Below, piece by piece: positions 26,352 through 29,367 of a DNA stretch of 64,000 nucleotides (positions are counted from its first letter, which is position 1; each line of letters begins with the position of its first letter). A program made the position numbers and the translations under genes. This DNA comes from Sphingorhabdus sp. EL138 (GTDB lineage: Bacteria > Pseudomonadota > Alphaproteobacteria > Sphingomonadales > Sphingomonadaceae), in assembly GCF_945890115.1 (NCBI RefSeq), contig NZ_CAMDCK010000008.1, positions 1 to 64,000 of the forward strand, given 5' to 3'. The notes beneath the pieces were generated by a model. It searched no databases and was not told the origin of the DNA. It was given only the letters and a program-made list of their open reading frames with translations.

Positions 26352-26456
26352 ATAAAATTTCGATTCTAAGAATGTGTGCCGAGCGGTGCCCGACGGATCG
26401 GGCTTTGCATGAGTTGGAAGCGGTATATAGAAGCAGTGACGATTTTCGCAACTGTC

Positions 26457-27506
26457 ATGGAAATTATGCCCGACCAAAGCCGCATCTATCTTGATCATGC
26501 CGCCACGACGCCCGTCATTCCGGCGGCGCGTGCGGCGATGGCCGAAGCCATGGTGCACTGGGCCAATCCGTCATCGCCGCATCAAGAGGGCAGGGCAGCC
26601 CGCTTTGCGCTAGAGGACGCACGCAGGCGGATTGCAGCCGCGCTGGATTGGGATGGAGAAGTCATCCTGACGAGCGGAGCCAGCGAAGCGATTGCACTTG
26701 GGCTTCGGGGCACAACCGCGGTGGCGAGTGCGGTGGAGCATGATGCGGTGCTGGCGGTGGCTGGGCCGAACCGTTTGCCGGTAGGGGATGATGGGCAGGT
26801 CGATGTCGGTGCGATTATTGGCAACGCCCGATTTGCCGTTCAATCCGTGAACAATGAAACTGGCGTCATCCAGCCCATAAAGGAGATTGCGGGCGCTGTG
26901 CGGGCCGTTGGCGGCATATTCTTCGCCGATTGTTCCCAGAGCGCTGGAAAACTGCCGCTCCCCGATGCGGATATGATTGCGGTCTCGGCGCATAAATTGG
27001 GCGGACCGCCGGGCATGGGTGCATTGCTCGTGCGCAATCTTGGATTATTGTCACCGACGGGTGGTCAAGAGCAAGGCTACCGACGCGGGACGGAGAATTT
27101 GCCTGCGGCGATCGGATTTGCAGCGGCGCTTGAGGCGGGGTTTTTGTGGATGGAAAACGCGGTGCGCCTCCGCAAAACATTGGAGGTCGCGGTTGTCGAA
27201 TCTGGCGGCGTTGTCATTGCATCGGAAAGCAACCGGTTAGCAACCATCGGCAGTTACCATATGCCAGGCGTTGCCGCATCGAGCCAGCTTATCAATTTCG
27301 ATATGGCGGGGATCGCAGTTTCTGCGGGCAGCGCCTGCTCGTCGGGGACGCTGAAAACCAGCCATGTGCTGGGTGCGATGGGATGGGATGATAGATCCGC
27401 GTCCGAAGTCATCCGCGTCAGCTTTGGCGCTGCCACGAATGACGTTGACATCACCCGTTTCATCGATGTTTGGCGCAACATTGCCGCCCGCGCAAAAGCC
27501 GCATGA
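26457..27506 (+). CDS. Cysteine desulfurase (NifS/IscS family), first copy
   Basis: A PLP enzyme that removes sulfur from cysteine for Fe-S clusters or tRNA thiolation. Residues by position (349 aa from ATG 26457): YLDHAATTP at the start, His95 (VEHDAV), the PLP Lys180 (SAHKLGG) and the sulfur-carrying Cys294 in the GSACSSGTLKTSH loop. It is shorter than IscS (~404), so closer to the IscS-like small group. The last codon overlaps the start of the second copy (ATGA). A start at 26466 is equally possible. Confidence 0.9.
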   Translation: MEIMPDQSRIYLDHAATTPVIPAARAAMAEAMVHWANPSSPHQEGRAARFALEDARRRIAAALDWDGEVILTSGASEAIALGLRGTTAVASAVEHDAVLAVAGPNRLPVGDDGQVDVGAIIGNARFAVQSVNNETGVIQPIKEIAGAVRAVGGIFFADCSQSAGKLPLPDADMIAVSAHKLGGPPGMGALLVRNLGLLSPTGGQEQGYRRGTENLPAAIGFAAALEAGFLWMENAVRLRKTLEVAVVESGGVVIASESNRLATIGSYHMPGVAASSQLINFDMAGIAVSAGSACSSGTLKTSHVLGAMGWDDRSASEVIRVSFGAATNDVDITRFIDVWRNIAARAKAA

Positions 27507-28648
27507 TATATCTAGACTATCAAGCCACGACGCCGCTCGCGCCCGAAGCCTTTTCGGCAATGGAGCCTTGGCTAAAGACCGGATTTGCGAACCCGCATAG
27601 CATGCATGCAGCGGGCAGAGCAGCGGCAGCGGCGGTTGAGGTCGCCCGCGATCGGATCGCGGCTTTGTTGCCGCCCGGCGGGCGCGTTATCTTTACCTCA
27701 GGCGCGACAGAAGCAATAAATTTGGCGATTATGGGAACTGGTCTGCCGGTCAGCGCCGCTGCGACTGAGCATGCGGCGGTTCTGGATTGCGTAAAGCATT
27801 TGGGTGGTAATATCCTCCCCATCGACTTGCGATGGGGAGGTGGCAGTTGCCTTGCAACTGACGGAGGGGCTTCTTCAATATTGGGACAGGTTGTATCCAG
27901 TTCCCCTCCACCGCTCGACCTTGTCGAGCGGTCCCCCTCCCCATCGCAAGTCGATGGGGAGGAATTGCTCGCCATCATGCTTATCAACAACGAAATTGGA
28001 ACCATTCAACCTATTGCCGATCTCGCCGCCGCCGCCCACGCTCAAAATAAGCTGTTCCTATGCGATGCCGTGCAAGCATTTGGCCGTATGCCTATTCCAG
28101 ACGGCCCGGACATGATCGCGATTTCCGCGCATAAAATATACGGACCAAAGGGCATCGGCGCTTTGTGGGTGCGCGATGGCGTTTCACTGGCCCCACAAAT
28201 GCTGGGCGGGGGGCAAGAGCAAGGCATGCGCTCTGGCACGCTCTCACCTGCTTTATGTGCTGGCTTTGGCGCTGCTGCAAAATTGGCGGCAGAAAGGATG
28301 GAAACAGATGCGGAGCATGTCTCCGCCCTGTGGGACCGCGCTTTGGCAGCGTTCGCAGACTGGACCATCAATGGCGCGACGAATGAGCGCTATAAAGGTA
28401 ACCTCAACATCCGCCGCGAAGGTATTGACGCGGGACGGCTGATCTCGGAATGCCGAAACATCGCATTTTCCGCCGGCAGCGCATGTGCAAGCGGGTCCGG
28501 TCGGCCAAGCCATGTGTTACGCGCGATCGGTCTGACTGACGCACAGGCAAAATCTTCCATCCGCTTGGGCTTTGGCCGCTATACGACGGCTGCAGAGATT
28601 GATATTGCAGCCGAGGCTATCAACCGAGCAGCAGAGGCGATGTTATGA
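27503..28648 (+). CDS. Cysteine desulfurase, second copy, with palindromic element read in frame
   Basis: A paralogue of the preceding gene: YLDYQATTP, His90, PLP Lys211 (SAHKIYG) and Cys328 (GSACASGSGRPSH) are all kept, so it may still be active. Between His90 and INNEIG (162) lie 72 residues, whereas copy one has 37 in the same stretch. Residues ~104-154 are encoded by a 149-bp palindromic element. The insert puts a Pro/Ser/Gly-rich, unconserved stretch near the active-site region. It overlaps both neighbours by 4 nt, implying one operon with the ferredoxin. Confidence 0.88.
   Translation: MIYLDYQATTPLAPEAFSAMEPWLKTGFANPHSMHAAGRAAAAAVEVARDRIAALLPPGGRVIFTSGATEAINLAIMGTGLPVSAAATEHAAVLDCVKHLGGNILPIDLRWGGGSCLATDGGASSILGQVVSSSPPPLDLVERSPSPSQVDGEELLAIMLINNEIGTIQPIADLAAAAHAQNKLFLCDAVQAFGRMPIPDGPDMIAISAHKIYGPKGIGALWVRDGVSLAPQMLGGGQEQGMRSGTLSPALCAGFGAAAKLAAERMETDAEHVSALWDRALAAFADWTINGATNERYKGNLNIRREGIDAGRLISECRNIAFSAGSACASGSGRPSHVLRAIGLTDAQAKSSIRLGFGRYTTAAEIDIAAEAINRAAEAML
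27814..27962. repeat. 149-bp palindromic element inside a coding sequence
   Basis: The two 27-bp ends (27814-27840 and 27936-27962) are perfect inverted copies of each other, and each is itself a hairpin (CCTCCCCATCG stem, 5-nt loop). Two more hairpins lie inside: CAGTTGC-CTT-GCAACTG (27844-27860) and CCGCTCGAC-CTT-GTCGAGCGG (27911-27931). No stop appears in the desulfurase frame. It resembles intergenic sphingomonad palindromes, but here it is translated. Confidence 0.85.
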
Positions 28649-28977
28649 TCACAGTCACGTTCATCAATGCCGACGGCGAATCGCGGGAGGTGCAAGCGGT
28701 TGACGGCCAGAGCTTGCTTGATCTCGCGCAAGCCGCCGGACAGCCGCTTGAGGGCACCTGCGAAGGCCAAATGGCGTGTTCCACCTGCCATGTGATCATT
28801 GATAAGGATTGGTTCGACAGGCTCCCCCGCGCGGTTGAGGATGAGGAAGATATGCTTGATCTCGCTAGTGGCGCACGACGCACGAGCCGCCTGTCGTGCC
28901 AAATCATCCTGACGCCCGAACTTGACGGGTTGCTTGTCCATGTTCCGGCGGAAAGCCGAAATATGCAGGGTCTGTGA
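28645..28977 (+). CDS. 2Fe-2S ferredoxin, adrenodoxin type
   Basis: A 110-residue electron carrier. The cluster ligands follow C-x5-C-x2-C-...-C: CEGQMACSTC then LSC. The sequence DGQSLLDLAQAAGQPLEGTCEGQ and ERLPR-like WFDRLPRAVEDEEDMLDLA is typical of ISC-type ferredoxins (Fdx/FdxB). Its start overlaps the second desulfurase stop by 4 nt (ATGA). It likely gives electrons for Fe-S assembly by the desulfurases. No scaffold (iscU/sufU) is next to it. Confidence 0.92.
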   Translation: MITVTFINADGESREVQAVDGQSLLDLAQAAGQPLEGTCEGQMACSTCHVIIDKDWFDRLPRAVEDEEDMLDLASGARRTSRLSCQIILTPELDGLLVHVPAESRNMQGL

Positions 28978-29009: not shown

Positions 29010-29015
29010 TATATG
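29010..29015 (+). promoter_or_regulatory. Candidate -10 box of ssrA
   Basis: TATATG lies 8 bp before the GCCGGG-TTCG-CCCGGC hairpin that should open the tmRNA precursor. A weak -35 (TTCCCA, 28988-28993) lies 16 bp upstream. Assignment is by position only. Confidence 0.35.
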
Positions 29016-29016
29016 T

Positions 29017-29330
29017 GTCGTTGCCGGGTTCGCCCGGCTATGGTGATAAATTGCGATGTGCAATAGGTGCAGCGGACCCGGGGGCGGTACCCGGCAGCTC
29101 CACCAAAATCTCTGTTTGTCAGAGGTCTTGGAGGGGCTGAACTAGGATCGACGTGCGTTGAAAAGCATTGTTTTTGCCCGGCATGAATAAGCCGTGAAAT
29201 GGTTCATAACCAATAGGTGCAAACGATAACTCAGCACTTGCTCTCGCAGCGTAATTTTGGGCCTCACGGTCTGAATTTACACTAAAAGAACGCGGCCGAA
29301 CCGGCCGGGCAACAGAAAGGTTACAGCGGC
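29017..29330 (+). ncRNA. ssrA: tmRNA, circularly permuted (two-piece)
   Basis: The tmRNA rescues ribosomes stalled on broken mRNA. Here the 3' tRNA-like piece comes first and ends in CCA at 29103-29105 (GGCAGCTCCACCA). The message piece follows, starting GGGGCTGAACTAGGATCGAC at 29133. GGGGCT pairs with AGCTCC to make the acceptor stem across the two pieces. The 27-nt stretch between them is the part removed in processing. The tag frame 29219-29254 (GCA AAC GAT ... TAA) encodes ANDNSALALAA, a typical sphingomonad ending. Piece ends at 29017 and 29330 are approximate. Confidence 0.93.
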
Positions 29331-29367
29331 CCCCCGGAGCCGGGCAACAGAATCCGGGACCTTTTTT
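29316..29367 (+). terminator. Terminator after ssrA
   Basis: A two-part stem (AAAGGT/ACCTTT outside, CCCGGA/TCCGGG inside) is followed by a run of T at 29362-29367, in the plus direction. It lies in a region with three GCCGGGCAACAGAA copies (29304, 29339, 29378). Confidence 0.6.

Follow-up and report, generated by a model that had tools for sequence, protein, structure and literature searches.

A palindromic element translated in frame inside a Sphingorhabdus cysteine desulfurase, and its likely kinship with DUF559-encoding repeats

The window analyzed here, a stretch of 64,000 nucleotides from Sphingorhabdus sp. EL138, carries a 149-nt palindromic element (positions 27814-27962) that is read through in frame, and without a stop, inside nfs2, a gene for an IscS/NifS-type cysteine desulfurase. 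This was seen both by direct reading and in the translation of the open reading frame, and the element almost certainly reached its place by insertion. Comparison between genomes shows that it belongs to a repeat family, that it was inserted in frame, and that it is absent from most relatives while a close relative carries the same insert. Comparison likewise shows that such elements recur at the same loops, that tRNA synthetases are among their hosts, and that long forms with the same ends encode a DUF559 protein whose core has a low dN/dS. The coding insert is likely to be a non-autonomous derivative of a mobile palindrome, the full form of which encodes DUF559. The evidence is comparative throughout, and no movement was observed.

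The palindromic element and its host gene

The host gene, nfs2 (27503-28648, + strand), codes for a protein of 381 aa with an Aminotran_5 domain (166 bits). Its open reading frame, 27470-28648, opens with TTG, has an in-frame ATG at 27503 and contains no internal stops. The product gave IscS/NifS-type NCBIfam matches, every one below its equivalog cut-off, and its PDB relatives are cysteine desulfurases. A paralogous cysteine desulfurase that lacks the insert is encoded upstream (ORF 26376-27506, + strand; Aminotran_5 over 26463-27506), and a 2Fe-2S ferredoxin gene (Fer2) lies downstream (28645-28977, + strand). Directly downstream of the nfs2 operon, at window positions 29010-29345, there is a tmRNA gene (tag ANDNSALALAA), and the motif GCCGGGCAACAGAA is repeated near the end of this gene and just beyond.

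The element, which is translated within residues 104-154, consists of an A half followed by a reversed B half, all on the + strand. The left terminal hairpin, CCTCCCCATCG-ACTTG-CGATGGGGAGG (27814-27840), is followed by an A-type subterminal hairpin that is part of a TGGC..TGACGGAGGGG module (27844-27860), a central GAGGGG..CCCCTC stem with a copy-specific loop (27864-27908), a B-type subterminal hairpin, ACCGCTCGAC-CTT-GTCGAGCGGT (27910-27932), and a right terminal hairpin that is a perfect inverted copy of the left one (27936-27962). The inverted ends pair perfectly over 27 bp, or over 28 bp when the flanking T/A is counted. An earlier note on this DNA had described a 149-bp element with perfect 27-bp inverted ends and neither stop nor frameshift, all of which we could re-read in the sequence; the four hairpins that it reported became five on recount (two terminal, two subterminal and one central). 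The fold of 27810-27966 reached -108.9 kcal/mol, compared with -54.8 (sd 4.0) for shuffled sequences (z -13.5), and none of 200 shuffles was as good. Four of the six frames of this element are open. Rfam gave two sub-threshold matches at the element, both to eukaryotic RNAs, which were dismissed as chance.

Counted on the translations, the loop from TEH/VEH to NNE.G has 79 residues in the nfs2 product and 44 in the upstream paralogue, in agreement with the 35 additional residues that had been claimed relative to the sister enzyme. Close orthologues without an insert have 46 residues here, so that the nfs2 loop is 33 residues longer than theirs. About 50 codons were inserted and ∼17 native codons are missing beside the insert, close to the ∼15 estimated previously, and hence the insertion was not clean. 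The residues His90, Lys211 and Cys328, which we take to be the catalytic residues of the family, are all retained, the earlier note having stated this of both catalytic residues, and their columns are invariant across 39 sequences. The AlphaFold model of the insert-bearing enzyme had a mean pLDDT of 84 and a pTM of 0.86, with pLDDT values below 50 in the insert (residues 111-114 and 116-149) as well as at residues 1-6 and 328-331. Since low model confidence is expected for an orphan insert, this suggests rather than shows that the insert is disordered. It is probably a disordered excursion on the host enzyme, and the insert-bearing desulfurase is presumably made and active.

The genus set comprised 45 genomes, including that of the window (G000), and the nfs2 protein was matched in all 45, in a few of them (e.g., G198) weakly and perhaps via the paralogue. 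The empty version that the earlier note had proposed to look for among relatives was found in 24 of the 29 genus genomes read, with loops of 46-56 residues. The loop is filled in the other five: G000 and G205 carry the same insert, G167 and G199 a second one, and G196 a third. The 50-51 residues do not belong to the conserved sequence of the enzyme, because this insert is common only to G000 and G205. A thirtieth genome, G068, has an unlike loop of 66 residues. In G205, which is an independent assembly of a close relative, the right arm of the insert is partly lost or decayed, and the frame is still open. A tree computed from the flanks of 29 taxa clusters G205, G167 and G199 (support 95) amid insert-free species; G000 adjoins this group at a node that carries no support value, and G196 is distant, beside the insert-free G195. 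From these placements we deduce three or more insertions or replacements in the loop. The left flank of the loop in G167 and G199 (L086, L087) resembles that of the G154/G163/G164 clade, as if the loop allele had been swapped before the second insertion.

The repeat family and its DUF559-encoding long forms

The ends of the element, whose presence elsewhere had been proposed as a check, recur at many other places, both within and between genes; in its own genome we counted 29 matching pieces at 12 distinct places, the nfs2 copy included. The family is built from two half-modules: A, a terminal hairpin plus TGGC-hairpin-TGACGGAGGGG, and B, a terminal hairpin plus GGGACC-hairpin-GGTGGAGGGG. They are combined as A+rcA, A+rcB or B+rcB, and solo terminal hairpins also occur. 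Exact patterns detected 89 A halves in 21 of the 45 genus genomes, the own genome included, and 98 B halves, also in 21 of the 45, and the reversed patterns used as a control gave zero matches in the same 45 genomes. B halves were present in 6 of 289 sampled Alphaproteobacteria, the own genome being one of them. Element DNA was matched in 15 of 41 genomes, all within the genus, and was partly matched in eight Sphingobium plasmid records.

A search set to lengths of 90-175 nt yielded 95 full-length elements of 97-162 nt, with the consensus ends AAAT-CCTCCCC..GGGGAGG-ATTT. No target-site duplication of 5-9 nt was observed among these 95 elements, and hence classical transposition is not supported; direct matches of 3-4 nt were slightly in excess within the AT-rich ends (for 4 nt, 0.447 vs 0.417, sd 0.014). 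Stop-free frames accounted for 56% of the six frames of the 95 elements compared with 47% (sd 1.8) in shuffles, which suggests that the family is somewhat suited to read-through. G199 contains several identical copies each of B half-elements of the AGCGAAGCT and GTCGCAGAC types, and this recurrence suggests a recent burst.

From 129 fetched clusters we obtained 135 element places, and 55 rows, a figure that includes duplicates from overlapping stretches and antisense frames, lay in frames that stay open for 50 codons or more in both directions. Intragenic copies were recognized through the open frame, so that gene-breaking copies fall outside these counts. Thirteen of the 14 host ORFs scanned matched curated families above cut-off, namely nfs2, valS, lnt, an Lhr-type helicase, dnaE2 (our reading of a match of the DNA polymerase III alpha type), a nucleotidyltransferase, an acyl-CoA carboxyltransferase, leuS, sarcosine oxidase alpha, biotin carboxylase, uvrC, methylmalonyl-CoA mutase and glyS; the fourteenth, a putative DNA methylase (L331), gave sub-threshold matches only. 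Empty orthologues are present for nfs2, valS, glyS and uvrC.

Some of these genes were hit repeatedly. The own genome has one strong match to valS, the next being at E 2e-23. Inserts were found in 4 of the 29 valS loops read, out of the 30 best loci (G000, G199, G162 and G197), as unlike palindromes at the same place. The valS insert of G000 is absent from G205, and valS of G202 also has an insert. At glyS site 1, 7 of the 19 loops read are filled: G192 and G197 carry inserts of the nfs2-element family, G195 has one of related look, and G161, G137, G193 and G199 have inserts of another repeat type. In-frame inserts of other repeat types at the glyS loci L415-L443 encode peptides such as SPAQAGAQ..LRRG and RHPELVSG..QVQHDG and presumably resemble CGTC-type REPs. 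At one point of uvrC, 15 of the 18 sequences read are empty, G205 has a solo hairpin, and G167 and G199 have a full element. Similarly, the rnpA-yidD spacer (23 loci, L390-L412) contains a full element in 2 cases, a degenerate solo hairpin in 6, a remnant in 1 and none in 14. The coexistence of these states suggests that full elements collapse to solo hairpins, or grow from them. The loops of valS, glyS and the desulfurase, hit by unlike repeats, amount to a natural insertion scan of important enzymes.

Some pairs of inverted halves enclose 440-490 bp or more, with a DUF559 ORF between them. All 10 long forms scanned matched PF04480 (78-108 bits; cut-off 20.6). A profile made from 12 DUF559 cores, each lying between two inverted halves, detected 20 DUF559 genes, spread over 15 genus genomes, and gave a single match in another family; this survey ran on stretches chosen for their repeats and says nothing on the frequency of DUF559 without repeats. 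Among the eight genus genes beyond the profile set, the hairpin pattern was matched at both ends in six, at a single end in L220 and at neither in L208. The DUF559 open frame spans both half-elements, and the peptides that these encode (GEGD..GGG and PLHH..GPPPRSGEE) resemble the coding inserts. The own genome has a DUF559 copy at C5:30934-31384, between genes that by eye encode acyl-CoA carboxylase subunits. The dN/dS of the core was 0.07-0.26 in five pairs (dS 1.0-1.4), dS being saturated in four further pairs, and the cores look to be under purifying selection.

A PDB profile search with DUF559 returned the endonuclease-like 3hrl (E 4e-22) and PvuRts1I (E 0.0015), along with a weak match to 3r3p, a mobile-intron endonuclease (E 0.05). 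With the predicted DUF559 fold, Foldseek ranked 3hrl (E 1e-3) and 3r3p (E 0.05) first, matches that are weak alone because the model came from one sequence and had a mean pLDDT of 63.5. PHROGs gave weak matches only, and Rfam gave no match at threshold on three long-form loci. In the available part of one report, VsrA, a Caulobacter DUF559 protein, is proposed as a mismatch-repair endonuclease (PMC12907096), which counts against the mobile-element reading of DUF559. A partial literature search, in which the letters of the repeat were not used as a query, returned nothing on this palindrome family or on a link to DUF559, and none of the papers that it returned for DUF559 is tied to palindromic repeats by its title.

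DUF559 relatives on plasmids were also collected by protein alone, blind to any repeat (36 records, of which 20 were examined). Inverted repeats scoring at least 16 bracketed 15 of these 20 loci, in Sphingomonadales, Sinorhizobium, Azospirillum lipoferum, Deinococcus and Cyanobacteria; the loci of A. brasilense, Synechocystis B12, Photobacterium, Shinella and Methylobacterium were not bracketed. IMG/VR contributed 21 DUF559 loci, partly near relatives of one another, with bracketing in 13 of the 14 that have at least 150 bp downstream and in 6 of the 7 that have less. Of 580 random places taken as background from 81 sequences, 1 was bracketed; the organisms sampled there differ from those of most test loci. 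The Pseudanabaena galeata plasmid pPg_02 (L504, 152250-154167) has a DUF559 element, its inverted flanks spanning 52 columns, that is embedded in frame in a large ORF, by eye methylase-like (DNA methylase). Two loci on plasmids of Sphingomonas parapaucimobilis YK209 (L493, L485) carry bracketed DUF559, one with sufB and sufC as its neighbors, the other flanked by transhydrogenase subunit genes.

We consider that the short copies quite probably derive from DUF559 elements. The full form would encode a Vsr/homing-endonuclease-like DUF559 nuclease between two inverted half-elements. Its copies would enter new places, and those in genes would survive in a tolerant loop with the frame kept open, for which stop-poor hairpins would be of help; most genic copies would be lost, and selection on the insert would act mainly against loss of the frame. 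We lean slightly towards the view that the nuclease drives the spread, with DUF559 cleavage promoting movement by, e.g., cut-and-repair or homing-like copying. An equally cautious preference goes to a broader proposal, that DUF559 is the single gene of a widespread class of mobile elements, a ∼110-residue homing-endonuclease-like nuclease between palindromic halves, whose gene-less offshoots scatter palindromes over genomes and, time and again, extend the same loops in essential enzymes by translated segments. As part of this proposal, the class would span Alphaproteobacteria, Deinococcus and Cyanobacteria, and its full form could sit in frame in a host gene.

It is possible, if rather doubtful, that another enzyme (a Y1/RAYT, TIRYT or DDE transposase) spreads the palindromes, in which case DUF559 would be a passenger, or a homing-type parasite that invades palindromes already in place. 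TIRtrons, in which RAYT-like transposases are flanked by inverted repeats, are described in the accessible part of PMC3733652, and a homing parasite would suit an endonuclease related to mobile-intron enzymes, both structure matches being weak. Furthermore, several genomes with short copies have no DUF559 in the stretches examined: this holds for 9 of the 24 genus genomes bearing half-elements, G205 included, in their repeat-chosen stretches. However, the DUF559 open frame traverses both half-elements, and the bracketing of DUF559 by inverted repeats extends over several phyla. A Y1_Tnp domain (PF01797) was not matched in the own genome by a search that was positive in 5 of 14 control genomes, and a RAYT/Y1 transposase was rejected as the partner.

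Divergence of the inserts

Shared inserts had a lower dS than the flanks of their own gene in 12 of 12 pairs, one of which (Lhr) carries unlike inserts, and in most pairs it was far lower. The values were 0.05 in the insert vs 0.41 in the gene for nfs2 of G000/G205, 0.07-0.09 vs 0.50-0.55 for lnt, 0.04-0.10 vs 0.47-0.63 for methylmalonyl-CoA mutase, and 0.09 vs 0.16 for uvrC, the mildest contrast among like pairs. The dN of the inserts was of the same order as their dS (ratios of ∼0.4 to 2, on few changes), so that there is no sign of protein-level constraint. In 14 orthologous pairs pooled, hand-picked from 62 as copies of one element and not all independent, 40 of 1398 stem sites had changed, compared with 38 of 441 loop sites (p 1e-6); the loops of the element change about as fast as flanking DNA. 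Two of the stem changes were compensatory, 18 were one-sided and still pairing, and 17 were pair-breaking, and covariation is hence not demonstrated.

Putative intergenic copies, such as those between rnpA and yidD, are about equally conserved, and the low divergence therefore looks palindrome-born rather than protein-born. It looks to reflect conversion between copies or arms, or a constraint on the hairpins; gene conversion of this kind is a possible source. Whole-gene exchange between species was rejected as the cause for the nfs2 insert, as differences start immediately on both sides of it.

That the insert serves the host, as a regulatory mRNA hairpin or as a useful protein segment under selection, appears improbable: such a role would fit shared inserts that diverge less than the synonymous sites of their genes and stems that change less than loops, but not a dN close to dS, putative intergenic copies about as conserved as genic ones, a G205 insert whose right arm is partly gone and whose frame is intact, or unlike elements occupying the same loop. 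Palindromes are prone to template-switching events and the length of the nfs2 loop varies within the genus, but local growth of a palindrome by template switching in a variable loop, instead of insertion, is highly improbable, being largely excluded by the same half-modules at unrelated places, and the full, solo-hairpin and empty alleles of uvrC at one point also speak against it.

Comparison with known systems

We return to the reading of the insert as an offshoot of a DUF559-encoding palindromic element. The in-frame palindrome as such is not a new phenomenon, because RPEs, WPEs and REPs are already established. The available parts of PMC2229807 and PMC10969869 report in-frame palindromic repeats from Rickettsia, Wolbachia, enterobacteria and Neisseria, and describe RPEs as repeats of 105-146 bp that occupy intergenic as well as genic places and keep the reading frame in conserved proteins. 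The likeness to Rickettsia palindromic elements drawn in the earlier note holds for behavior and fails for membership by host, Sphingorhabdus lying outside Rickettsiales. Like RPEs and WPEs, the present family consists of ∼100-150 bp palindromes within and between genes, and like RPEs it occurs in frame in conserved genes (the 13 recognized here) whose orthologues are empty. In contrast to RPEs and WPEs, it has modular A/B halves, DUF559 long forms and unlike elements in the same loops, and its host order is not Rickettsiales; the likeness to RPEs is drawn from their description. The recurrent loop inserts would offer a direct view of mobile DNA making new protein sequence outside Rickettsiales. 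The Caulobacter CIR, according to the available text, lies outside genes and has stops in all six frames (PMC2229807), whereas the present family has in-frame copies and the window's element is open in four of six frames.

Like the GTAG/CGTC REPs (Di Nocera et al. 2013), the present elements are palindromic, have in-frame copies and count tRNA synthetases among their hosts. E. litoralis and S. alaskensis are sphingomonads. The accessible part of PMC3733652 reports REPs in frame in tRNA synthetases of these two species, and recB of X. campestris and X. oryzae hit at about one site. Unlike a GTAG REP/REPtron, the present element carries no GTAG tag, and its own genome has no Y1 transposase match. 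A CGTC REP has a CGTC-type tag, an AT-starting stem of 8-9 bp and an unpaired tail, as far as the same source describes it (PMC3733652), whereas the terminal stems studied here begin with CC/GG and are self-paired to the end (AAAT-CCTCCCC..GGGGAGG-ATTT). No mobilizing enzyme is known for CGTC repeats, according to the part of that source available (PMC3733652).

TIRtrons are described there as RAYT-like transposases between inverted repeats, some with GGGGWSAS, which in some species form a repeat family (PMC3733652, available part). The DUF559 long form similarly consists of a small gene flanked by inverted repeats, and these likewise occur as a repeat family; however, its gene is a DUF559 endonuclease, not Y1, and GGGGAGGT and GGGGAGGG fail GGGGWSAS. 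As with homing endonucleases (I-Bth0305I), DUF559 is tied to mobile DNA and its nuclease fold is probably related (3r3p, E 0.05), but DUF559 elements have palindromic ends, and neither a defined homing site nor an intron or intein was seen.

Finally, the family resembles MITEs in being short and multicopy with terminal inverted repeats. The counterpart of the autonomous partner of a MITE would be the DUF559 long forms, which share the ends of the element and for which mobilization is a candidate role. A DUF559 nuclease with the same ends is a testable candidate mobilizer and would give a domain of unknown function a role. If the DUF559 reading is right, these elements would be a new kind of mobile element.
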